Part shown: positions 1,601 through 57,147 of the stretch, one piece after another
How positions within the stretch are numbered: position 1 is the first letter of the stretch
How the letters are laid out: every line of letters begins with the position of its first letter
Assembly: GCA_963855995.1 (NCBI GenBank)
Contig: OY979718.1
Location: forward strand, 42,529,559-42,593,558
Length of the DNA: 64,000 bases
From: Muricea muricata
Lineage: Eukaryota > Cnidaria > Anthozoa > Malacalcyonacea > Plexauridae
Direction of reading: 5' to 3'
The notes under the pieces: generated by a model
Databases searched by the model: none
What the model was told of the DNA's origin: nothing
The model's input: the letters and a program-made list of their open reading frames with translations, nothing else
Position numbers and translations under genes: made by a program

Positions 1601-2099
1601 TTGAGCAAAGACAGTTTCTTGTGTTCTTTTAGAATCCCTTTCGCCAATTGGTATAAACAATTTAGTTGTTGGCCTCTTAATCGTGTCAGTAATATAGTTA
1701 ATGAAAGACACAAAACATCCGTGTGTCCCTAACATTTAAATTTCTGCATAAAATATCTTTTCGTTTCAAATCGTTCTTCGTTTTCCGCTGTTCCACATGT
1801 TAATATCCGATGTGCTTTTTTGAGCGGTTCACTGAAGCTTAAAGTGCCCATACAGGCAAATTTTTTTATTGGCAATATTAAATCTAGGCATGATTTCTAT
1901 CCTATCTGTCCAAAAATTTTTTGATTTGGGCAAATCGTTCGTGTTTTATGGCCGTTTAAAGCTGGCTCTCGATGGACCTTGTCCGTCATTTTTAAAGCCT
2001 GGAACGAGCACGTTTTGTGACGTAATCCAAGGTAGTCGGCTTGTGGCTTTGATCAACAGGTGGGAATTTTGTCTGAGCATGCGCTAGAATTCGCACGGT

Positions 2100-3640
2100 T
2101 AAAGCAGAAAAGAGACTTGGGACGAGTAAATTTAGCAATTGGGTTTTTGACCTCGTTTTTTCTTCCAACCCAGTTTTTAGTAATTTATTGAATTATTGGA
2201 AAGGTTAGGAAGGTATGAGAACGTTCGGAGGCTAAAAAAATATAAAAATACACATTCGAACGGCCTCGGATTCCCACGGAAATGTCTAATAATTCCTTCT
2301 AACCCGAATTTTGAGGTGAACGAATTACCTCCCATACTAAAGTATGTGTTCCAAGCAACAGTTTTAACCATATTTCGTTTTGAGGCACTCGACTAGATTT
2401 TGAAATATTTTATTTTTTGTGATTTTATTGTGTTGATCTTCACCCCCACAAATCACCCTGTATTAAAGTGAAGGGAGAGGGAAGTATATTTGCATGATTT
2501 CAAAACTATTCATATTTTCTGAATCAATAGACTCCAGTCTTTCAAGTGATATGCTTTAACGAACAGGATTGGCAAAACATGTCATTTCTAGTGGAATATT
2601 CAGAGGTACCTATTGGGTTTAATACAGACTAATGTCAGACAGTGGTGCCGTTTTCGTTATCAACCCGAATTTTTACATCAAAAATACTTTGATTAGTGCA
2701 GTAAGAAAGCTTTGAAGATTGATTTAGACATGGTTTCGTTTTGAGGCACTCGACTAGATTTTTTACAATCTTGAGTTGAATATTTAGCTTTTTCCAATTT
2801 TCAGCAAAATCACGATTTTTCCACTAGGCATTTTCAAAGATATAAATCATAAATAAACTTTGTAAAGGTGTTTCCGAGTAGAAAAAGACATGAGAAATAA
2901 ATGTGAAACCCACCGCGTGTTTAGTCTTTTAATTTCGTCTGTCCAAAGGATGGAAAAAACTTGTATCTTCGAAAAAAATTATATTTCGTCCACATTCCGT
3001 CAGAGATATTTGCACTTTATAAATGCCTGATTTCATTTAGAAGTCATTTATCCATTCCATTTCCCCATAACCTTCGTAGAAAGGACTTTAAATTCTTGCA
3101 AATCTACTGTTTTCTTCCAAAAAAAGAAGCCCAAAAGCTTGTTTTTGCTCATTTTGATAATTTTTAAAAGAATTTTTCGCGACCGCCCGCAATTTACTGA
3201 CCAGCGGAGACAAAATTCCCACCTGTAACACCTGTTGCTTTGATCAACTTGTATTCGCTCCGCCGTTTCTAGTTTGCAGAGTTGTAAAAAGCGTTCAAAC
3301 TTCCTCCGGGCAAAATTTCCTAAGGTTGCAAACCTGCCTCAAAATGTTGTAAAGTTGGGCTTTACAAACTGAAGATCAGAATTAGTCTTGCAAATGAATC
3401 ACTATTTTTTTTGGAAAGAAGGCATGTTTTCTGGAATGGATCATCATCTATTATTTTTTGTTAGTTTAGTGTTTAGGATACATTATGTAGTGTGTTGACA
3501 TGAAACCTTCCTCACTGACTGCCCATTTTGCAAACCTTCCTCACGGGTAATACCCGCATACCCGTGGCTTTTTTGCAACTCTGCTAGTTTGGTTGTGTTG
3601 TTCTTGTTTGGTTGAACTTTACACTGCTTTTTTTTAAAAT
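2100..3640. other. Non-coding interior of the TTAA element
   Basis: No convincing gene. A motif of about 30 bp containing GTTTTGAGGCACTCGACTAG occurs twice (about 2374-2404 and 2734-2764). The stretch at 3170-3225 is an inverted echo of 2050-2080 (around GGTGGGAATTTTGTCT). This may be the eroded transposase body or the promoter side of the P2X7-like gene. Confidence 0.4.
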
Positions 3641-3643
3641 ATC

Positions 3644-4609
3644 ATGTCATCCGATCATGAAACCGATTCGAAGGTGAGTTATCAAACTGATGACTCGGAT
3701 ATAAACTTTATTCCGGGATATATTATGGAATGCCCCGAGCGTGAAAATTCCAGCTCAAGCGATCAAGAAGAAAGCAACATGGGCGCATATGCAGACGAAC
3801 CTATGGCCGACGAAGAGTGGTTGGAAAACTACAACAGGCAAGAAAGAGAGCGTCTAGAGCTAGAGGAAAAGCTAAGGAAAAGGTTGGATGGTTCTGTTGA
3901 AGTGAGCGAGTGGTAAGTAGTTGGTAAACAAGGATTATATCGATTTTGTTTCATGGGTTTTGTATTGTGCCAGTTGTTTTCTATAAGCGAAACCTAGCGC
4001 GTGAACTCTTTGCCAAATCTAAATATTTTTGCCCTTTTTAACACAGGTGTAGTTGTGGCAACTGTGGGACCACTCTACTTAGTAATTTAAAGGAATGCTT
4101 GTGTTGTATTGAGCTGGAAAGATGCGATAAAGCCATGAAAAGCGAAGAGGTTGTCATGGATCTTAAAGCCGATGGCATTGAAAATGCAAAATGCTAACTC
4201 AACACCCGGGATTCACATGTATATGCCTCCAAAAGTGGGTTTGAAGCAAGCTGCCGTGAATTACAAAATCAAGAGTAACACAAAATATAGTCAAGTGGGA
4301 ACACAGAATAGGTAACAAATTTATTTGGTTTATACTTTTGTTGTTAGACTTCTGTCCATTTGCTTATCACTAAAATATAAAATTATCTCCTAATTTTTTT
4401 TACTGTTCAAAACCACAATATATTTCATAAATTCCTATTTATTTTATTTTAAATTCTTACGCAGCATCTCGTATAGAGAGTTTACAAGACTTATATATGG
4501 TCCCCTTGGTAATAGGCGAATACCACTACCTGCATGTGCTTACATTGCAATAAGAAATAAATTTCCTGTGCTGGATAAAGAAATTTTACTGGATATTCTG
4601 ATGACTTAG
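3644..4609 (+). pseudogene. P2X7-like zinc-module protein, three exons, two frameshifts
   Basis: Proposed exons are 3644-3912, 4047-4311 and 4465-4609; splice sites are GT/AG and phases agree. Exon 1 starts MSSDHETDSKV and is acidic and Ser-rich. Exon 2 opens with the module WCSCGNCG...ECLCC, resembling the cysteine-rich intracellular domain of P2X7 receptors that occurs without a channel in many cnidarian proteins (from memory). HPGFTC and then, after the splice, YREFTRLIYGPLGNRR and PACAYIAIRNKFP continue the same family pattern. Two single-base shifts (about 4190-4195 and 4228) break exon 2, so this is a recent pseudogene or the assembly has indels. No membrane segments are present, so it is not a receptor. 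It probably belongs to the surrounding transposon. Confidence 0.6.
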
Positions 4610-4643
4610 ACTAGGAAACTTGTGGCATGATAAATAAAAATAT

Positions 4644-4748
4644 AAAATAAAACATAATCCGAAGATTAGCATCTTGAAACTTCAATATCGTCTTGTTTTA
4701 ATCCGTATCCTGGGTTTCAAGATGCTAATCTTCGGATTATGTTTTACT
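4644..4748. repeat. Near-perfect hairpin, 32-bp arms
   Basis: ATAATCCGAAGATTAGCATC at about 4652 returns inverted at about 4721-4742, and the homology extends into AT-rich flanks. It is a small foldback MITE just downstream of the P2X7-like stop codon. Confidence 0.7.
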
Positions 4749-5019
4749 TTATATTTCTTAAAATTGTCGGCTGGTATTGGTTTTTTTGATAAATACATAT
4801 GGGGCTGGTTGTTCAAAAGCAGGATAACTTTAAATTCGAAGGAAATTCTGCAGAATCTTATAATAAGCTTGAGATATATCTAAAAAAGCTTGTTAGCATG
4901 ACAGGATGCACAAACTAAAACAGTACTATAGCGTTAATGCTAACCGTTAGTGTTAACCTACCTTTGAACAACAGGCCCGAAATGTAATAAACACATAATT
5001 TGGCAAAAAATTTCACCTT

Positions 5020-5299
5020 TTATCTATTTTTTGACCATAGATAAAAATGTTGAGCATAAATAAACTGAAGTGTGAGTAGTCTAAAGTCTAAAATGTCAGT
5101 ATATTTTGTTTGACATGTCTGCCAGCCAACAATCTCCGCCGTTCGTGCTGTTTTGTATTCAAGAACAATTAGTAGCAACTCAACTTCGTCGTCAGACCAG
5201 ACAAAGCTGTCAGACTTGCTCTTCTTGGCTTTTGACGATTGCCCTTCCGAATTTGGCTTTTTTTTAGCAATTTCAAAAGCAATAAATTGAAAATTGGCG
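5020..5299 (-). pseudogene. Myb/SANT-like transposon protein fragment
   Basis: The open frame runs on the minus strand from a stop at about 5299 to TAA at 5020, with no internal Met start. It encodes a Lys/Ser-rich lead, then FVWSDDEVELLLIVLEYK, then QTKYTDIL. This resembles short Myb/SANT-like DNA-binding segments of invertebrate transposon-encoded proteins (from memory). It lies between the opposing THAP exon and the P2X7-like gene and is probably another piece of the same element. Confidence 0.4.
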
Positions 5300-5681
5300 T
5301 TTTAAACAGTCCAAACACTAGCCACGTGTGATCTTACGAAAAGAAAAACAAACTGCGTGCAGGTTTTTGCGGGCTCGTCTTTTCACCAGCGCATGCTCAG
5401 ATCGTGTTTCATGAGCGCGTTCAAATTTACCCGGGTACGTGTGGACGGGCGAAAACGATTTGAACACGGTTACGTGTGGACGCGGTACTTTTCGTAACCG
5501 TGAAAATATTTACCCGGTTTTAAATTTGCACGGGTACGTGTGGACGGGGCCTAAGCTGCATGCAATGCTTTTAAAACTCCCCACTTTATTCTCCCATTCC
5601 ATCTGGTGCCAGTTGATTCTATTCGTCAATTTGTTTCTATTTGTTTACTTGTGCTTTAATGGGTTGAAGTAAATTTAAAAT

Positions 5682-5944
5682 CAACAAAATAAAACAAATT
5701 CTGAAAATAGACATCTTGTATTCCTGTGCTATATATATACAAAGTTTAATCTTGGCAAGCTGCAGTTAGCCTGCCAAGATTGAACTTTGTAGATATATAG
5801 CACAGCCTGTTTATAATCTAATCTATTGGTTTGACAATGTCTTTGGAATAAAGACGAAATATCACCGACTCCGTTGTTTTCTTGTTTTTTCTTGAATATC
5901 AGGAATACAAGATGTCTATTTTCGGAATTTGTTTTATTTTGTAT
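5682..5944. repeat. Nested double hairpin (MITE)
   Basis: The outer arms pair 5682-5726 with 5901-5941 (sharing AATAGACATCTTGTATTCCTG against its inverse). Inner arms pair 5726-5759 with 5771-5803 (around AATCTTGGCAAG). The asymmetric spacing suggests one foldback next to or inside another. Confidence 0.65.
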
Positions 5945-6088
5945 TTCCTTAATTTCCTAATAACTGGTAAGCTTTTATCAACTTTAAAAAAAATATATAA
6001 TCGGATATAAACTTGTTAACACAAGCTATTGTAACTCGGTTAAATTCGTAAATATGTCGCATACAAAAGCTTATATTTACAGACTCAC

Positions 6089-6455
6089 CATGCGTCTATC
6101 CCTTGGACTTTGCACTGGTGGGTCGCTCGACGTTCCCTTCGACGGAGCATGTATACTTGGAAAGACACAAATACCAAAATCATCGCTCCTTAACTTCGGA
6201 AAATTAGGTCTCGTTTGTCCAGGTAATATTTGAAACCTTCACTCGTAATCTTCAGGCATAAAATGCGTGGAACATAACGTCGATGCCTTCGAAGGTTGAA
6301 AGACACGCTTTGCCTTCACGAAGTCTACCCAGACTTTCCTTCTGCGCTTAGCTTCAGGGCGATCGTCATTAAAAAAAGGTATAGTGTGAAGACTTATACC
6401 CAAACTAAGAGACGATTTATTCGTACAATTTGCAAGCTACACAGCTATTCACCAT
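6089..6455 (-). pseudogene. THAP zinc-finger exon, broken
   Basis: The minus-strand ATG at 6455 starts MVNSCVACKLYE. After a frameshift it reads DDRPEAKRRRKVWVDFVKAK, then STLCSTHFMPEDYE, a stop, and PGQTRPNFPKLRSDD. This gives the THAP C2CH pattern (CVAC, a tryptophan, C..H) and the conserved Pro after it. A GTGAGT donor lies at 6087-6088. THAP domains bind DNA at transposon ends. One frameshift and one stop make it non-functional. It faces the P2X7-like gene within the same inverted-repeat element. Confidence 0.65.
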
Positions 6456-6799
6456 TTTTTATTCTTCGCGCGCAGTGTAGATGACTAACAATCAGTATAA
6501 AGTGAATTTGCATTAAAAGCCTATTTTCACGAGTACCTTGGATGACGTCACAAAATAGACTCGTTCCAGACTTCTCGTAACAGCGGACAAGGTTCATCAG
6601 AAAGTGCACTTTTGTCAACTTTAAACGGCCATAAAACACAAACGATTTGTCCAAATCAAAAAATTCTTGGACAGATAGGATAGAAAACATGACGAAATTT
6701 AATATCGTTGTGTGCTTAGGTGCACACGCTTGGCTGCATGTCTTGTTATAATCAATACATAGTTTAACAAAACCCTTATATATAATTGTCGTTTGGTCG

Positions 6800-7131
6800 A
6801 CCAAGGACACAAAGTTTTACATCACCAGTGTTGATAAACGTTTGATAAGTACGGTATACAGTTTTAGTAGAAACAAATAACTGTGAAGCGATTTCCTGAT
6901 AGGTAGGTTAATAAAAGACGCGGTGAAATATCATTCGCCACCGTAGATCGTTCGAATATGGTGCCGGCATTTTTCAATCTTGCTTCGCTTATTGGAAACA
7001 CTGCCCGACTGAACTCGTAATATCCGCGAAGCACCCATAGCAAGCACACGCGAGTTGATGCATACTAATAATCACATGACATGTATATTGATATAGTTGA
7101 TTTGGACAACGTTAATGACAGCGACTGTATA
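6800..7131 (-). pseudogene. Tc1/IS630-like transposase 5' remnant (right half of inverted pair)
   Basis: Inverted copy of 1186-1480 with the same terminus (ACAGTCGCTGTCATTAACG at 7131 reading leftward) next to a short TA tract. The minus strand encodes [18 protein letters not shown] and, after a shift, EIASQLFVSTKTVYRTYQTF, a better-preserved helix-turn-helix than the left copy. It breaks down near 6780. Confidence 0.6.
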
Positions 7132-7134
7132 TAT

Positions 7135-7460
7135 ATATATTTATATATTTATATATACGTTGAAGACATACATAGATTACTATTAGGCGCGGGGGCGGTT
7201 TGGAAAGGTCTGGCCACATCCATCAAAATTACAATTACAATTTGTTTAACACACTCTGATTCTATATGTGCATCTATACAATCCAGGCACATGCACAGTG
7301 TAAGCCACCAGGGAAACAGTTTATCTATCTAAACTAATGCACAACATACTTTGACCTTCTGCTTCATGACTAATATTGTGTCTTTAATAGCACATTGCAT
7401 GCACATTTATGAGTTTGATTTATAAATACAGCAAGTGTGCAATCATGTGATCCATTTAAG
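7135..7460. other. Intergenic, no gene seen
   Basis: Unique-looking AT-rich sequence between the Tc1-like end and the next hairpin. No reading frame, RNA or repeat could be supported. Confidence 0.4.
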
Positions 7461-7464
7461 AAAT

Positions 7465-7655
7465 ATAAAACATTTTTCCGTGTTCATATACAGTTGTATC
7501 AACACGAGTGGAAGTTGGAAAAACGAGAAATTGTGTGGAAACACGACGTCCGAAGGACGGAGTGTTTTCACACAATTTCGAGTTTTTTTCCAATTTCCAC
7601 GATTGTTGATAAACTGTATATCAACACAGGAAAATGTTTTAGAATTTTCTTATAA
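7465..7655. mobile_element. Hairpin MITE, copy 1 (second copy near 60.3 kb)
   Basis: Arms of about 80 bp fold around a GC-rich centre (CGACGTCCGAAGGACGG). They begin ACATTTTTCCGTGTTCATAT and end in the inverse. The element at 60256-60465 is a close copy with a centre of similar symmetry. It is short, fully palindromic and non-coding. Confidence 0.75.
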
Positions 7656-32900: not shown

Positions 32901-35900
32901 CATGATCAAGGAGTGAGTCTAGGAAATGTGTTCCTAATTCTAATCACAAAGTATTCGTTGTGATTTCTTTCTTTGGTTTTATATTTCTACCTATGTTGAG
33001 ATGCTGATATTTCGTACAAAATGATTTATTTGCTTGTGGGATCTCTTACATTTATAAAAGGTAAGAGACATTTTACATTCTAATTCCAGTTAGTCTAAAG
33101 TTCCCAACAAATTATATCGTGGAGACTTCAGGCAGTGTGCTACAGAACTGATTTAAATGCTGCTATCAGGTTAGTATATTTATGTACTGTATACACTTTT
33201 AGTAAAATTTTCTTTACTTGCAACTGCCCAAAAATAAAACAGCCATATGTTGGTGGTATTATGACAAAAGAATCTTGTTTAATATGTTTACTATGAAAGT
33301 CTTTAATTTAAATCAAATTCTAAAAAATGCAATTTTGCTAGGACTCTGGGCAGAGTTCCAGGCAAGTCACTCAGACATTGGTTTTTGGTTACCTTAGTGA
33401 TTACAAAAAATGTGCTAGCAATGTCTTAAAATGCCTTGGAAGGTACCCTAACATAATAATTGATTTAAAAAGGAATTTGTTGGGCAGAACAGAAATAAGT
33501 GAATATACCCCACCCCCAATGAACGCTCTAGTTACAGCCATGCCTGGCCTTGTGCCCATTTTCGTTTCGGCAGGCGGAGTGAACGCCTTAGCAGGCGTCT
33601 TCTTGATTGTAAATATGGAGGCGTTCCGTACGGTTCAAATTTTTTTTTTTTTTTATTCAAATTTATTAAAAATTCTTGAATGGCAGTCAACGCAAGGAAG
33701 ACTGAAAAACTCAAGATACAATTAGGATTAAATATTAATTATATTACAACAATCAAGAGTTAAGATATAAAAATACTGAAATAATTACTTAGAGTATAAT
33801 AAGTTGAAAAGTACAAGTTAAAAAGCATCCCATTTCTTTACACAATATGGCAGACAACTATCACTAAAACGTTTGGTATGACATTTGAAGAGTGGAATGG
33901 TCCGTGCATGTCTAAGGTTGTGCTGATGGTAAGTTGGATGAGGCAATAACTCCGACAGTTTACTTGACGTATCACATAAATTCTTTTTATAAAACCGCAT
34001 GCACAACAATTCTCTCCTTTCGGTAAGTGTGGGCAACTTTAACATACTCAGGCTCTCCTGATATGACATATTTGGCAAGATAATTCTCAGCGCACGTTTT
34101 TGAATATGCTCAATTTGGTCGCTGAGTAAAATCGATAAAGAAGAGTGCCATACCGGGCACGCGTATTCAAGAATAGGACGAACAAAGCTGCAATAAACCT
34201 TCTGAAGATCACGGGATTGTACGCCATTACGTTTAAGTAGCCTGAGCGCATATAAACGCTTGCTTGCTTTGGAACAAATATGGGTGACGTGCTTCGTCCA
34301 TTTAAGATCGGATGTCAGGTATACACCTAGTAGTTTTGTAGTCTGAACCATCTCAAGGTACTGATTATCAATCATCAATGGCTGGAGTGATGGTTGGTTT
34401 TTTAAAAATGATACAATAAATTCTTTCGTTTTTTTAACATTTAAATTCATATTGTTCGCAATTGACCATTGGTTAACCCTATCCACCTCATTCTGTAAGG
34501 TTGATAAATTCAATTCGCCGACTCTAACAACCTCTGACAAAGCGCTGTCATCCACATATTTATATAAGGGTACCTGGCTAACCAAATCATTCACCATTAT
34601 CAGGAAAAATAAGGGTCCAAGTTTGGTTCCTTGTGGTACACCAGCATTTATACTTCTCCAGTTCGAAGTACAATTTTGTAATTTAACACGTTGTTGCCGT
34701 TGTCCAAGAAAACTAGCGCACCAATTCAAAAGCACAGGTGGAACATTAAGTAACCTTAATTTATCAATCAAAATGTTATGATCAATTCGGTCAAACGCTT
34801 TCGAAAAGTCTATCATGCACGTCCGAATAAAAGTGTTAGGTTCCTCAAGAGCAGATAACCAACTATGAAGAAGATGAACGAGGGCATGCGTTGTTGATGA
34901 TCTTTTGACGCTTCCAAATTGATAAGGATCGATATGAGGCATTACTATACGTGCAATCCAATTAAAAACAAAGCCTTCGAGAACTTTGCTTATCACAGGT
35001 GTCAAGGATATAGGTCTAAGGTCGGAGTCAATAGACTGTGGTTGGGGAGTCTTCGCAAGTGGCAGGACTTCCGCACTCTTCCAAAGCTTAGGGACATGGC
35101 CTTCTCTAATGGAAGAATTAAAAATGGAACAGACAGGATTGGAAATGATTGATGCGCAATCTTTTAATACCCAATTTGGGATTTTATCAGGTCCCACTGA
35201 TTTGCGTTCATTAATAACAGATAGAGCAAGTTCTACAGCTTCTGAAGAAATAATGTACTCATCAGGGACATCTATCACCGGGATAGGAGTATAAGCTAAA
35301 GGTGATAAATCATCAGTGACACGGCTGAAGGATTCACTTATCAACTCCGCAAGATCAACGTCCCTTAGTATTGTATCATTCACTGTGATGCTTGTTATAG
35401 GTGGTGTTTTCGTTAAGCCAGAAAGCATTTTGATACCATCCCACCACTTGTGGGGATCTGTGTCGTGTGTATGGCTAATTCTATCAGCAAAAAATCGATG
35501 TCTCGCCTTTTTACAAAGTTTTATCACCTTATTGCGGTATACTTTGTAATTTTGTGAATCATTTTTCACCCAAGCTTGCTGGCGCTTTTTGATGTTGTCT
35601 TTAATGAGGGGAGTGATCCAGGGTTTGTCGTTGGGGTGTTTTTTGACTGAAACGATAGGGAGATAGAAATCGATCGCATCATCAATTACGGTCTGGAAAG
35701 CTTCTAGCTGGTGCTCACACGAATTTAACCGCATAATGGGTGTCCAATTAAAGTTTTCTAAGGCGACAATCAAATGTCTCTTATTGGATGCTCTACTATC
35801 ACGTTTATGAAATCGCATTGTTGGTAAACTTGGGGTCGGTTTTCCCGTAGGTTGGAGAAGGACACTGGAATGATCAGATGATGCAACAGGCGGTAAGATG

Positions 35901-38900
35901 ATAGATTCATAATACGGTAGTAGGGTTGAAAACGCTTGATCCAAGGTATTATTTCCCCTTGTAGGCTTTGTCACAAGTTTCTTAAGTTTAAAGGAGGAGC
36001 ACAAATTAGCTGGTTTAAATTGGTTAAAGTCTCCAAGAAGCATAATCGCAGAATTCGGGTAAGTAGCAAGAAGAGAATCAAGGGAGTTAAAAATATGTGA
36101 GCGAAGGATACGATCGTCGCTCTGAGGAGCGTGATAGACAGTTCCCAATACAATAGAATTGATTCCTCTTGGTAGACGGTCCGTTTTTATAAGGAACCAT
36201 TGAGTTTCAATCTCAGGCTCACACAGATCGCCCAATTCAATAACGTTAAGTCGTGAACTTATATACGTGCAAAGGCCTCCTCCCCGTTGATTATTAGGTC
36301 TATCTTTTCGATAAGTCACGTATCCAGGAATGCGGATGAGTTCATCGCTTATCTGTGAACAAAGCCATGACTCGGTTATTACCACGATTTCAAAGGAGTT
36401 TGCAGAAACAATTGCAAAAAGTTCATCTAATTTGTTAACCATTGACCTAAGATTACTAAAAAAAATCTTTGGAAAGTTCGGCTTTGTGACTGGTTTTCGC
36501 AAAGGGATGAGTAAACGATGATTCGGGGCTCTTTGTCGATATGGTACCCTAAATGTTCTTTTTGAGAGTGAAATAACAGGGATTGTTCCGAAAAAACTTT
36601 TGACCCCAGCGACTTTTTACACGAGGAAGCTCTTTTTGGGAGATTTCTAAATTGCCATCAACAACCGTATAACTATCAATATCAGCGGATACGGATACAT
36701 ATTCAATAGGAGGTTTCACTTTGCCATCAGCAGCAAGAGAAATTAGTGGCAATTGACTAACCCATTTCGGAAAATGTGAAGGTCGTAGATTGTTATTCTT
36801 GACTTCCTTTATTCGATGAATATGTTCAGATTTTGTATCTTTACTTGAGCTTCTTTTATCATTACGTTTCACTTGGTTTACACAATCGCCATCAACAACC
36901 GTATAACTATCAATATCATTAGGTATATTAATTCTCTTTGTTTGTTTACGACCTTTAGCAGCCTTATTACTATTATAATTAGGTGATGCTGTATAATTTT
37001 CACGTTGCTTAGCTTTAGTTGATTTTAATGTCTTTATGGAAGCAATTTTGCCCTTAAGAGACGCATTCAATGCTTCACTTATTTTAAGTTTGTTCTCGAG
37101 GGAGACAACTGTTTGATTTACATCTGCTATTTCATTATTTCTGCCACTCATTAAAACTTGTATATCATCTTCAAGGTGCTTACAATTTTCCCTTGCATTA
37201 ACTAGGTCTTGTTCTAAACGTTTGTTTTGACCGCTAAGGGACACATTCAATGCTTTACTTGTTTTAAGTGAATTTTCGAGGGAGACAATAGTTTGGTTTA
37301 GGTCTGCTATTTCGTTGTTCCTGCCAGTTATTAAAATTTGTATATCCCCTTTAAGATTCTTACACTCTTCCCTTGCTTTATATAATTCTTGTTCTAAACG
37401 TTTGCTTTCATCACTTTCACGTATTCCACCGGGTTTCATTTTAGACTCAATATTTCTTTGCATAATTACCATATCCAATTTAATTCCCTCAATTTCTGCG
37501 GCCAAAAGACCACATTTGCAATCACACTGCAAAACACTCGATGATTCTTGATAAATAGGTTTAGGTCTAACCATGCTATAATGTTGATCCAATGGTGTGT
37601 CATCCTCAAAAAGAACCTTAGGCTTGGTAGTTGCTTCACTATTCATATTCGTTATAAATTCGACAGACATTCGATTTAATGTATCGGTTGACGTATTCAG
37701 AGTACTTATTAAAAATTTCCTTACCAATTCACCGTCTTTTCCATTAAACAATAAAGTATTTTGCTTACCCGGGTGCCATGTCATTACCAAATCAAAGTCA
37801 CTGCTTACGAACTGTTTAGACTTGCCACCGGGCGATTTCCTGCAACCTTTCCAAGCTATCTTTTCAAATAATTCCTGATATAATCGCGATCTGTTTCCAA
37901 CATTTCCGAGCACAGATTTATATTAATTGTTACTGGTAAATGAAATGCTGTGTTGTCTGGACGCTCTTTGAGTGCTTGCACTAAATCAACATGCTTGACT
38001 ATGTCGCTTTCGACGAAGATGCAATCTACGATGGAATTTCCCGTATTTGAGAGATATGTACAGTATACTGGGAATTTCGCAACATGTCCATATGGGGACA
38101 AGTTAACTGCGACCAAGCTCACTTTACTCAGAAATCTTCGTAATCTTTTACCTCTATTGTTCCACTTTCGACTTAGGTTATCTTGACTTATGTGCATTAA
38201 AATCTCCTAGCATTAACAGCTTTGTTCCGCAAGAGTTATGATGTACGCAAAACTGTTCCAGTGTATCCAAAGTTTTCACGTGCTCTTTTAAATTATTGTT
38301 GCTTGAAGGCAAATATACTGTTACAATAACGATATTCATGACAATATTTTCAATTTTAAATGATACTGATACTTATCGATCAGACCCGGTTTGCATTCCT
38401 TGTATTTTCAGGTTTTTTAACGCCACCTTGTCTACCTTCCGCCGATGTTATTATCCATACTGGTACGTTAAAGTTTTCTTGCATAAATAAAATTCCCATA
38501 TATATCCCAACACGACATCAGACAAATTTAGTTTTGTTTGCTCGTATTTTTGTTATTTAAATACCTCTATTGCCACAACTTTGTTTTGACAACCATTCCC
38601 TATAATAGAAATGATTTGGCCAATATACGTTATATACGTATCAAAGTCTTCCGCATTGATATTAACTCGGACAGCAATTGTACCTTTTAGTTTGCTATTA
38701 AAAACTCGAATAAACGTTGGGGAAATGCCTCTTTGCTCCATGCATTCCATAATTTTTTCTGCGCTTGTACCTCATTGCACGCCTACGAGATATAATCGTT
38801 TTATTATCCTTCGTTCTACCCCCACAAAATCTAAACTGACATGTTCGGTTGAATTCTCCTCAGTCGCGGTCATATCATTGTACAGGAGTTTCTGAATTGA

Positions 38901-49617: not shown

Positions 49618-49953
49618 ATTCACAACACTATACTCTATATACGCTCGTCACGAATATTACGTATTTATCCATAAACAAATTACATTTTCTGGTTCTTTGA
49701 AAAAAAATCAAAACGGAATAAGAAATCACGCCAGCAATACGCAATGGTCAGTGGCAGCACACATTACGAAAGAAACGTCATTTAAGATATTTGGAATAAA
49801 TGAAAGTGGTGATTATTAAGTGATAGCGAAAGTGGTGGGGTTTTTTCTTTGTCTCATTTGTCTCTGGTTTTGGAATAAAACATTTTTCGAAGTTACTAAA
49901 TCTCGAAGTTTATAGAACTTTCTGCTCAAGTTTTTTTTTTAAATGCCACTACA
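49618..49953. promoter_or_regulatory. Divergent intergenic region between SCOC and the MBLAC1-like gene
   Basis: 336 bp separate the two ATG codons, which point away from each other, so one bidirectional promoter is likely. No TATA box at a convincing position was identified. A T run (49930-49939) precedes the MBLAC1-like ATG. Confidence 0.5.
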
Positions 49954-50571
49954 ATGGCTGTTGTATCAGCAAAATACAACATTTCTGTCCTAATGGAAGG
50001 TTATTCCTATGAAGATAAAGATGGCATGTTTAAAGCAGATGGAACAAGCACTTTGATAACTGGACCAAAGAAAATAGTTGTAGACACAGGAAGCCCTCGT
50101 GATAAAGACCAGCTTATTAGGCGTCTACAGGATCATGGTTTAGCTCCATCAGATATTGATTATGTTATATGTACACATGGCCATATTGATCATGTTGGAA
50201 ATCTAAATTTATTTCCTGATGCAAAATTTATTGTTGGCTATGATATCATGCATGGTGACAGTTATGTTGAGCATGATTTTAAGGAAGGAAATATTTACAA
50301 GATAGATGACAATGTTGAGGTAATTCCAACACCGGGTCATACACATGCTGATGTTAGTGTGCTAGTCAAGCATGTGAAGGACTATGGTACAGTTGGGATA
50401 TGTGGTGACCTGTTCGAAAAAAAAGATGACGAGAATGAGTGGCAGAGTTTAAGTGAATGTGTCAAACAACAAGAAGAAAACAGGGCAAAGATTTTACAGT
50501 TGACAGATTATGTGATCCCAGGCCATGGTGCCATGTTTGCAACAACAAAAAAAGTCGATTTAAAGTTATAA
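49954..50571 (+). CDS. MBLAC1-like metallo-beta-lactamase domain protein, 205 aa
   Basis: A single uninterrupted exon. It has the metallo-beta-lactamase metal ligands: THGHIDHVGN (about residues 74-83, the HxHxDH motif), PGHTHADVS (about 128-136), GDLFE (about 151) and IPGHG (about 190). VVDTGSP near residue 43 is the usual strand before the active site. Length and the compact C-terminus agree with MBLAC1, a metazoan hydrolase. The human protein has been reported to process histone pre-mRNA 3' ends, which is not shown for this one. The ATG at 49954 is followed by MAVVSAKYNISVL, a natural start. AATAAA lies at 50709, 138 bp after the stop, as a likely polyadenylation signal. MBLAC1 is favoured over the larger MBLAC2 or glyoxalase II by length. 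Confidence 0.85.
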   Translation: MAVVSAKYNISVLMEGYSYEDKDGMFKADGTSTLITGPKKIVVDTGSPRDKDQLIRRLQDHGLAPSDIDYVICTHGHIDHVGNLNLFPDAKFIVGYDIMHGDSYVEHDFKEGNIYKIDDNVEVIPTPGHTHADVSVLVKHVKDYGTVGICGDLFEKKDDENEWQSLSECVKQQEENRAKILQLTDYVIPGHGAMFATTKKVDLKL

Positions 50572-52265: not shown

Positions 52266-52713
52266 ATTAATAATGACCTTTTCTTTCATCTGCTCACGAT
52301 AGTCTCCTCGAGCGACACGAGCAAATTGCGTGGGATTTGTTGATTTATGACACACAAGCCGGAAAGGCTATAAACGAGCAAACTGATTATCGATATTCTA
52401 TAATTGTGGGCGATATTTTTGAAACCTATCGATACTTCCAAAGAGTTTATTAAAGTGCATATGAAAGAATTTTGATTTTTTCACTAAAAATCGGCCGTGG
52501 CGAGACGATTCGAATGACGTGTTGCATTTCCCAATCCGAAAAATATTTTCGCAGATATTTGACTTTAAACCCGCCAATTTTCAAAAGTGGCCGGGAAAAA
52601 TAAGACTGAGTCCGAATAAAGCTCGTGACGTCAAATCGGGAACGGAAGTAATTTTGCAAGTATCAATTTGCTATAAATCAATATTGTTTGGCGCAGCATA
52701 TGAGCACAAATAT

Positions 52714-53640
52714 GAGTGTAAAATACCTTAGCTTTGCGTTGTTTTTGGGTGTTCTAACACGCCGGACCCAAAAAGCGGTATAATTCTTCATAAGATTCTT
52801 TGTGATGGGAATTCCAGACCAGAGGCGATAAAGCGAGTCAAGCGCTGGGTAGATTTCGTTAAGCGCAAACACGCTAAATTGGAGCCTTCCAGTTCAAGCT
52901 GGATATACTCGAAGCATCTGGAGGCTGGACGCATTTGTTCGCCAAGAAAATTTGCCGGGGCAAGCTTACATTCCGTGGCTAAAAAAAGATGAGATCGATG
53001 TTTCATCGTTCCCAACATTGTTCGCTGCAAGCGAAGGCGGCCAAGAGATGACGAAGAGAACAGCTAGAACACTTCAACACAAGGTGAGATTGCTGAGGCA
53101 AACAATTTATAAAGCAAAATTGCATATATGATGATGATATATCGCAAGTATTTCTAACTTATGTTACCATTAAAAAAATTTTGATTGCGAAGGGAGAGCA
53201 TACTGCAGTAGAACCTCAACCCTCTACATCAATAGAGTTCGAGGAAACTGGTGTTGTAATGGACGAAACTACAGCATCAGAAACCATTGTTTCGGTAATT
53301 TAACACTGTTAACACTTTAAGTTAATTCTTTCATTTGCATACCGCAAATCGGTTTGCCACAAACTTAGCTTTATTGACCTTGTTGTTAACTAGACATTGT
53401 AAGAACGGTTTACACTACATGTACGAGTAGAGTGTCCACAGTTTAACAATTGTTTTTGTTTGAACCCGAAGGAACTAAATGAAGGGATATAACGTGAGAA
53501 ATTTACCCAAACAATGGCTACATACGTGTGTGACGAATGTGTCATATTACGAAAAGAAAACAGGCTTCTTCGCCATGAACTGTTGACGAAGAACAAAAGT
53601 TGACCCACGAGAAGAAAATCTCTGCCGAATTACGTTCTAG
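52714..53640 (+). pseudogene. THAP-domain transposase 5' exons, broken
   Basis: ATG at 52714, then a frameshift, then the THAP domain: CVVFGCSNTPDPKSGI, RPEAIKRVKRWVDFVKRK and SWIYSKHLEAG, where the expected C in CSKHF has become Y. After a second shift come DEIDVSSFPTLFAASEGG and TARTLQHK/GTGAGA (exon end about 53082). The next exon is about 53194-53294 (EHTAVEPQPSTSIEFEETGV). The third is about 53529-53640, with the coiled-coil CVILRKENRLLRHELL. Loss of a zinc ligand and two shifts make it non-functional. Confidence 0.65.
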
Positions 53641-53644
53641 TAAG

Positions 53645-55110
53645 TGTTTTCAGTTATATATACTTAGATCTAGTAGGAGGCACGCTCATAAGGTTTTATT
53701 CCTGCTTTGCAGTCAATCTCTAGGAAAGCGCAGACAATGTCGGCCATCCACGCCAGCCAGATCCGACAATAGTACTAATAACATATTCTTTATTCTGTGT
53801 TATACCTCCAACATGGCTGCTATGACATTATATACAAACCAGCAATAGAATTTGTTTGGTGCAATGAATGTTTCTGTATGTCGGTTTGATAAAAGAATAA
53901 TTGTATTTTGCCATTGTTAGTGACAGATTTCGTTTAAAACAGCTTGAAAGTCACCAGGGCTAAGTTATCACATTTTTGTTCTTCCCACATTATGAATTCA
54001 TACTGTTCATCTATAACTGAACAGACAAAGCAAAATCTTATCTATTTATTTATTTTATACCAAGAAAACAGCATTAAACATTTTGAAATACAGTTTTGTG
54101 TGGTGCAATTCTGTGTCTGTCTCTTGAGATCGTGTCTCTTGACCAATAAAAACACATAAATTCCTAACATTATATAATTATTTTATAGTGTCTGAAAATT
54201 TTTGAGAAACCAGAAGGGACATGAAAATGTCCTGGATTGCCCAAGGAATAAGCAAAGTGGCAAATGACTGTATGATATTGTAGATATTGTATATTTAATT
54301 CTGTAGTTTTATTTTATTAACAAATAGATATTTAATACAACAAATGTGATGGAAATAGATAGAAAAAGTGTATGTACAAGATAATTTATTAACCTGTGTT
54401 TATTGTACTGTTCACCAAGTGACCTTTAGCAGTTTTGTGTTGTCATTGCCTCATTGCACTCGACTTGTGCACAATAGATTTAATGCACTAAACAATATTT
54501 GGCTCAACCTCAGGGAGGGGAAGCAAACATTGACTATGCTATTAAAACAGTTGAACAAAGGCCATTTGGGGCAAAGTGTAAAAATAGTATGTTGTATTTG
54601 TAAAACAGTTTATTATTCTGAGTCAATATCCTCATCAAAACCTGTAAATACATCTGAATTTTCTCTAAATTTTGTTTGAGTTGATTGGTATACACATGCT
54701 GTAGACAAGTTGAGAAAACTCCAGTCTCTATATGATCTTGCCCGCTAGAACCTAAAAAAAGATTAGAAATAGTAAGTATACAAAAAACAAAATAAAGGCA
54801 AATAAATTAGATAGCATCTGTGAAGAATGCTGTGGTATCTGGTGGTATATTTTTCATGGTTAAGCAAAAAATATTGGAAACAAAATTATGTACAGTAATT
54901 TGAGCAATAACATTAAGAAAAGCAAATTGCAAACAACCACTGCATGCATTTTTAATCTGCGGTCTATCTATGTATCTGCGAGCGTATCGTTAGCTGTATT
55001 AGGGTTATAATTTATGTAGTCTATTTCTTAAAGTGAGTATAGCGTGTTTGTGTAAAACATGTCAATTACTTTTAATTGCAACAAAACCTCAGCCTAATAC
55101 TTACGTCTCT
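53645..55110. other. Interior of the TTAA element, no gene recognised
   Basis: Where the DDE core would be expected, only short frames are found (for example LTCVYCTVHQVTFSSFVLSL at about 54385). AT-rich and featureless. Confidence 0.4.
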
Positions 55111-55119
55111 TCTGAACCA

Positions 55120-55434
55120 TTCGGCGAAATGTTCGGCGAGATATTGTTCGATATTTACTTGCGGCCATCCAGAGTGACCATTTCTCTAAACAGGTAATCC
55201 TAAATCCTGAATGATGCGCTACACATCACTGGCTTTCCTGTATGATCCAAGAAATTGAAGCTGCCGCAGCTACACTGTCTTCCGATGCCTTCACCTTTGT
55301 CTCGTACGATGGCGAAGTGGAACCTACATGGCTACATCAAATTGCTCGACTTCAAGTTCGTATTCATCAACATAATCCGGCTCTGATTCATTAGATGAAA
55401 ACGTTTAATCGGAGTATACCTTAGAACTACTCAT
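55120..55434 (-). pseudogene. P2X7-like gene start, opposing the THAP exons
   Basis: The minus-strand ATG at 55434 begins MSSSKVYSD, has a stop, then TFSSNESEPDYVDEYELEVE, an acidic Ser-rich lead like that of the gene at 3644. After a shift it reads GRQCSCGSFNFLD and KPVMCSASFRI, a degraded version of the CSCGNC...C.CC module. Weak alone, but supported by the identical layout of the element at 1.8-6.7 kb. Confidence 0.4.
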
Positions 55435-55753
55435 ATTAGTACAACTTTCGTAAAATAAAACAAATTTTCTCAAATTTTTCTAATTTAATTGCGCTGTTTA
55501 TACAAAACACTAATAATAAAGAACAGTTAGGAGGTCAAATTACTTCCGTTCCCGATTTGACGTCACAAACCTTAATTCGTACCCAGCTTCTTTTCTCCCG
55601 GCCTGATTTAAAAAAACCTATTTTTTGGCGTGTTCGAAGCTAAATATCTCTGGAAGTATTTGTCCTATCAAATAATGATATACATCATTCGAATCGTCTC
55701 GTCATGGCCGATTTTTTAGGGAACAAATAAAAATTCTTTCATATGCACTTTAA

Positions 55754-56860: not shown

Positions 56861-57147
56861 ATCTACTTCTCCACCTGGTACTTCTCCACCTGGTACTTCT
56901 CCACCTGGTACTTCTCCACCTGGTACTTCTCCACCTGGTACTTCTCCGCCTTGTACTTCTCCACCTGGTACTTCTCCACCTGGTACTTCTCCACCTGGTA
57001 CTTCGTCACCTGGTACTTCTCCATCTGGTACTTCTCCACCTGGTACTTTTCCACCTGGTACTTCGTCACCTGGTACTTCTCCACCTGGTACTTCTCCACC
57101 TGGTACTTGTCCACCTGGTACTTCTCCACCTGGTACTTCTCCGCCAT
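56861..57147. repeat. 15-bp minisatellite, about 19 copies
   Basis: The unit is CTCCACCTGGTACTT, with variants (CGTCACC, CCATCTG, TTCCACC, GTCCACC). Because the unit is a multiple of three and lacks stops, most frames stay open. The plus frame gives (SPPGT)n, the minus frame (GGEVP)n and another (STWYF)n. Two larger variant blocks recur (about 60 bp apart), suggesting higher-order duplication. Treated as non-coding; a 220-codon plus frame spanning it has no splice or family support. Confidence 0.85.

Follow-up and report, generated by a model that had tools for sequence, protein, structure and literature searches.

The Kol0 families of Kolobok transposons encode a transposase together with KolX, a protein carrying the ballast domain of the P2X7 receptor, and the tail of that receptor is held to derive from such an element (Kojima and Bao 2022, PMC9587614, as excerpted). 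The same excerpts give a TTAA duplication, 5′-RR and YY-3′ ends and a C/DxxH motif as Kolobok characters, and the corresponding excerpts of a study on Xenopus list DDE, THAP and H2CH as the usual motifs of Kolobok transposases (PMC6004289). Against this background we analyzed a stretch of 64,000 nucleotides (hereinafter the window; G000:C3:42529559-42593558) from the 453-Mb genome of Muricea muricata, in which a sequence-only reading had proposed two transposons, here called element 1 and element 2, that begin alike and are each bounded by long inverted repeats, with a THAP exon and a P2X7-like gene pointing inward from opposite ends. That reading had also taken the P2X7-like protein for a regular part of the transposon family and knew of no described Kolobok-type family with such a partner. 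The last claim is overtaken by the published pairing of Kol0 with KolX (PMC9587614, as excerpted). The literature searched yielded no paper that brings P2RX7, THAP and transpos together. The two elements are ordinary copies of the arrangement already published, and neither is a full autonomous transposon. The other claims largely stood, with the corrections given below, and the sequence evidence makes it very probable that both elements derive, as degenerate copies, from TTAA-specific Kolobok DNA transposons of Kol0 type. Their parts are as follows (TIR, terminal inverted repeat; L051, a fuller copy from the family of element 1).

1839..6727, no strand: element 1, a predicted Kolobok (Kol0-type) copy, internally deleted and interrupted; left end TTAA followed by AGTGC, right TTAA lost
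1839..2057 (+): left terminal region/TIR of element 1; 99.1% identical to L051 2303-2521, a piece that begins at TTAA in L051
3644..3912 (+): KolX exon 1 of element 1, the acidic N-terminal part, followed by a GT donor; 96.5% protein identity to L051
4047..4311 (+): KolX exon 2 of element 1, holding the cysteine motif; frame broken further on
4465..4609 (+): KolX exon 3 of element 1, the C-terminal ballast part; P2RX7_C profile positions 143-185, e-value 0.058
6077..6436 (-): THAP exon of element 1 with an internal stop; Pfam THAP e-value 5.9e-8 for 6239-6436
6530..6727 (-): right TIR of element 1, its outermost end decayed
52450..55753, no strand: element 2, a predicted non-autonomous member of a Kolobok family; TTAA followed by AGTGC at the left, GCACT followed by TTAA at the right
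52450..52654 (+): left TIR of element 2, pairing with the right TIR; 325 first-look candidates in the genome
52732..52930 (+): THAP exon of element 2, frame lost; Pfam THAP e-value 4.2e-6
55094..55425 (-): KolX (P2X7-like) relic of element 2, linked to KolX through L060
55537..55753 (-): right TIR of element 2, pairing with the left TIR

The anatomy of the two elements, their TTAA borders, the convergent gene order and the recurrence of these features in the genome were observed directly. Both begin with TTAA and AG at the left, with TTAAAGTGC at 1839 and 52450; as evidence by itself this 9-mer was rejected, since it has three matches in the window (the third at 55745-55753 on the minus strand) and at least three in 14 of 100 shuffles. 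The inverted ends align at 79.5% identity in element 1 (1875-2038 versus 6530-6705; e-value 3e-38) and at 77% in element 2 (52450-52654 versus 55537-55753; e-value 5e-40). With TTAA at both ends and 5′-RR and YY-3′ termini, element 2 retains the span originally assigned to it. Element 1 has TTAA at its left end alone: comparison with L051 showed none at the right, where the alignment stops at 6707 and only TAGGTGCAC is recognizable beyond it, to about 6727, so that 6735, the end first proposed, is not the true one.

Both THAP exons pass the Pfam cut-off, and in that of element 2 the third cysteine of the C2CH set reads as tyrosine. In element 1 the KolX gene (+) and the THAP exon (-) read inward from opposite ends and are thus convergent. 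GT/AG borders are directly legible at its KolX exons, and the reading frame of the gene is broken. When the exons were joined with X at the breaks, the product matched the Pfam P2RX7_C profile with an e-value of 2.7e-4 and 21.3 bits, slightly below the curated cut-off of 23.5 bits. Read by eye, it shows the cysteines of CxCGxC, CLCC and LPAC. The pattern CxCGxC..CC was found a single time in the six-frame translation of the window and in 0 of 100 Markov-resampled windows.

For element 2, what had been read as a P2X7-like gene is a relic, and one alternative is that element 2 is a Kolobok derivative whose minus-strand relic is not KolX. Apart from the self-match, the element 1 KolX protein has its best tblastn match in the window at this relic. 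The relic has no Pfam match, the e-value of that tblastn match is 0.028, and its score was reached by 4 of 500 resampled sequences; these three findings count toward that alternative. The identification comes instead from another locus, L060, whose DNA aligns to the relic (74% over 261 columns and 72% over 126 columns) and whose protein aligns to the element 1 KolX (e-value 1e-16 in a single-locus search and 8.7e-13 across the whole genome). Because L060 aligns to both, we take the relic for KolX and regard a non-KolX origin as extremely improbable. The loose motif CxCGx[C/F] was discarded as evidence for element 2: it occurs twice in the window, whereas resampled windows average 0.63 occurrences and reach 3 at most.

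Element 2 belongs to a family with many near-identical copies. We scored 40 of the 325 candidate loci for its left TIR, and other forms may be among those unscored; 38 were at least 97% identical (the element's own copy included, one split in two) and two were 87% identical. In 37 of these 40 loci the KolX relic faces the TIR within 8 kb, at a median distance of 2,644 bp, the three exceptions being one locus of 97% identity and the two of 87%. A search with the relic gave 49 candidates, of which 40 were scored, yielding 41 rows: 37 at 96-100% identity (again including the own copy), two at 81% and two in L060 at 79% and 72%; four of the 41 rows lack such a TIR in the list. Three copies that we fetched begin at TTAA, differ in their flanks and share 98.8-99.1% identity over 1.7 kb. 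Given the high identity among scored copies, the spread of this family appears to be recent.

Three Kolobok DDE motif patterns were tried on the window without a match, in either element or elsewhere; fuller relatives in the genome do have such motifs. Of the loci examined, L042-L044 were picked through THAP matches, L051-L053 through matches of the element 1 KolX protein, and L060 as a relative of element 2. We take GDGR.DS.GH to be a Kolobok transposase motif, and it occurs together with DxWH in L042, L043, L051 and L052. L042, a compact copy, has all parts within 4.2 kb, between TTAA-bordered TIRs that are 96% alike over 182 bp: THAP at 9424-8957 (-), GDGR.DS.GH at 7624 (-) and DxWH at 7362 (-) converge on KolX at 5869-6336 (+). 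L051 is bounded by TTAA on both sides and contains KolX, THAP and the two DDE motifs, with KolX and transposase again convergent, and its DNA matches element 1 at 97.1%, 98.3% and 99.1% in three pieces and at 93.0% in the right-hand piece. Hence, as judged by motifs and homology, L042 and L051 each appear to unite THAP, DDE and the P2X7-like gene within one TIR pair, the combination that the sequence-only reading had named as confirming its proposal. Less complete are L043 (THAP, DDE motifs and a partial KolX within paired repeats that do not end at TTAA), L052 (KolX, DDE motifs and THAP, with no right TIR found) and L053 (of these parts only KolX, THAP and DxWH, with TTAA at one end and a changed sequence at the other). 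By eye, a reverse-transcriptase-like open reading frame (ORF) lies between the parts of L043. A THAP profile built from six sequences (elements 1 and 2, L042, L043, L044 and L051) matched L042, L043, L044, L051, L052 and L053, the first four of which were in the profile.

Across the genome, where all profile and protein counts are lower bounds (150 candidates were scored for each), P2RX7_C gave 741 candidates, and all 150 matches listed lie above the cut-off (best e-value 8.1e-38). The element 1 KolX protein gave 168 matches among the 150 scored of 898 candidates; the best six show 89-92% identity over exon 2, and in genome copies exons 2 and 3 are once more matched separately, so that the exon split recurs. 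From the P2RX7_C list we took 10-kb stretches at every seventh row from rank 4, leaving out rank 32 (ranks 4, 11, 18, 25 and 39, all within the top 39 of 150). In four of the five (L039, L040, L041 and L061) a TIR pair with TTAAAG-type ends encloses KolX and, on the opposite strand, a DDE region; the DDE probe came from L040 itself, and the other three match it at 66-81%. THAP gave 1,373 candidates, of which 150 were scored, and in five of eight loci from the top of that list (L031, L033, L034, L037 and L038, among L031-L038) GDGR.DS.GH is found in the 1.5-kb flank, on the strand of the THAP match. We also compared the borders of KolX loci L001-L030, among which 23 pairs have a best shared piece at least 85% alike; in five of the 23, from the L009/L010, L027/L028/L030 and L019/L029 families, the shared sequence begins at TTAAAG or no more than 2 bases away. 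By eye, C1 (124 of 453 Mb) has clearly more than half of the P2RX7_C, THAP and KolX protein matches listed, and 13 of the 40 element 2 TIR loci; the excess in the protein lists may come from the search, with its 150 scored candidates.

These counts bear on the possibility that the P2X7-like gene comes from the host, a fragment of a host gene having been caught by chance in two elements. Free-standing ballast-domain proteins are indeed reported from many animals (Rump et al. 2020, PMC7016195, as excerpted). Yet P2RX7_C has at least 150 matches in this genome; four of five sampled loci lie within TTAA-bordered TIR pairs with an opposing DDE region, and 37 of the 40 element 2 TIRs scored pair with the relic. 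With recurrence across distinct families we rejected chance capture, whose likelihood we put as close to nil as that of a non-KolX relic. The sampled loci, L051 and the element 2 copies instead bear out the claim that the P2X7-like protein is a regular part of the transposon family.

A second alternative assigns the elements to another THAP- or TTAA-linked superfamily. The P element suggests itself through the resemblance of THAP to its DNA-binding domain (thus the title of a reference cited in PMC6004289), and piggyBac through its TTAA duplications (PMC9587614, as excerpted). In the latter excerpts, however, TTAA with 5′-AG ends sets Kolobok apart, and most of the seven cysteines are stated to be absent from piggyBac proteins, whereas in element 1 the cysteines of CxCGxC, CLCC and LPAC can be read by eye. 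GDGR.DS.GH and DxWH stand beside KolX in the relatives, which argues against both superfamilies, and we consider this assignment very unlikely, if slightly less so than chance capture.

Several observations weigh against placing the elements and their relatives in one Kol0-type arrangement. The count of four in five sampled stretches stands without a control rate from random stretches, and in the 10 kb of the fifth, L062 (rank 39), KolX is accompanied by neither a TIR pair nor a DDE region. L060 likewise has KolX and no such TIR pair, THAP or DDE match, while L044 (445-1791) is a 1.35-kb TTAA-bordered inverted-repeat pair with a THAP exon in which neither KolX nor a DDE motif was matched. The remaining 18 of the 23 border pairs do not start at TTAAAG: many reach the end of the 3.4-kb stretch, and L002/L023, L014/L018 and both L009 and L010 with L026 start elsewhere. 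In L039-L041 the pattern used found no DxWH, and the DDE exons have no Pfam match, so that the transposase is assigned by motif (GDGR.DS.GH; C/DxxH) and association. Nor was THAP detected there in ORFs of at least 30 residues, despite the presence of both KolX and a DDE region; exons that were missed, or divergence, may be the reason.

Under the Kol0 interpretation, the fuller relatives carry, between long TIRs, a THAP-DDE transposase and, convergent to it, KolX, a zinc-binding protein rich in cysteine that bears the P2X7 ballast domain. The THAP part would bind the TIRs, the DDE core would cut and paste at TTAA, and KolX would act as an accessory protein of the transposase complex. Element 1 is a dead copy, deprived of its DDE region by an internal deletion. 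The element 2 family would have been copied recently, its genes already broken at that time and the proteins supplied in trans by other elements, as suggested by the damage to both genes in the window and by the high identity among relics. We raise tentatively, as a doubtful but not negligible prospect, that KolX is paired with two kinds of transposase in this genome, one with THAP (the element 1 family and L042) and one in which THAP went undetected (L039-L041); if so, KolX would be an essential partner of the catalytic core, outlasting a swap of the DNA-binding domain.

Element 1 is further interrupted by foreign sequence, and its main deletion can be placed against L051:

about 2058..3236, no strand: foreign insertion with inverted CAGGTGGGAATTTTGTC near its ends and the 12-bp flanking repeat GCTTTGATCAAC; the L051 site is empty
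3277..3583, no strand: short foreign insertion with ends CAGAGTTG and CAACTCTG and the 8-bp duplication CTAGTTTG; the L051 site is empty
about 5081..5550, no strand: foreign stretch with a GGCCCCGTCCACACG end and a short ORF, replacing about 25 bp of L051
about 5955..5970, no strand: deletion junction, with about 3.7 kb of L051 missing, including the DDE motifs

The 12 bp flanking the first insertion are an unusual length for such a repeat. The second is presumably hAT-like, a superfamily guessed from duplication length and termini, and the short ORF of the third has no Pfam match. Inverted copies of another repeat flank element 1 (1156-1455 and 6802-7157; pieces 96.8% and 97.4% identical), and an ORF in the right arm seems to resemble a Tc1/IS630-type helix-turn-helix. 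Elsewhere in the window, a 932-residue ORF at 33818-36616 (-) with an RVT_1 match (e-value 9.2e-24) and a weak endonuclease match below the cut-off (e-value 0.0024) is probably a non-LTR (non-long-terminal-repeat) retrotransposon; a 223-residue open frame at 49900-50571 (+), matching the metallo-beta-lactamase fold (e-value 2.8e-19), is perhaps a host gene; and 56864-57145 is a tandem repeat of short period, in which both strands have open frames. Sequence searches of solved structures with both P2X7-like parts gave no match (e-values up to 1 and up to 10), and none of the 8 pattern matches in viral contigs or the 129 in the genome contigs collection was confirmed as a relative.

The anatomy of a single genome thus independently shows the P2X7 ballast domain as a regular passenger of TTAA-specific Kolobok transposons, in agreement with the published view in which the receptor tail originated from such an element (PMC9587614, as excerpted), and the near-identical element 2 copies and the compact L042 make this genome well suited to studying the role of KolX in transposition. 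Among described systems, the XKol transposases of Xenopus share the THAP and DDE layout, with THAP found here in elements 1 and 2, L042-L044 and L051-L053; the passages on the transposase in that source mention no KolX partner (PMC6004289). The cysteine-rich domain of the element 1 KolX is that of the P2X7 C-terminal ballast/ZCD and NANOR-like proteins in the excerpted account of PMC7016195, which differ in being short free proteins or the P2X7 tail, the string "transpos" having 0 occurrences in that paper's main text. Closest is the Kol0 lineage (Kolobok-1_XT type). The window copies are incomplete by comparison, and "THAP" has 0 occurrences in the main text of PMC9587614. As far as that source was excerpted, the characters held in common are the TTAA duplication (both ends of element 2, the starts of its three fetched copies and the left end of element 1), the 5′-RR ends, a DDD/E transposase with C/DxxH, seen by motif in the relatives outside the window, and a KolX with the ballast domain, carried by element 1, by the genome copies and, through L060, by the relic of element 2.

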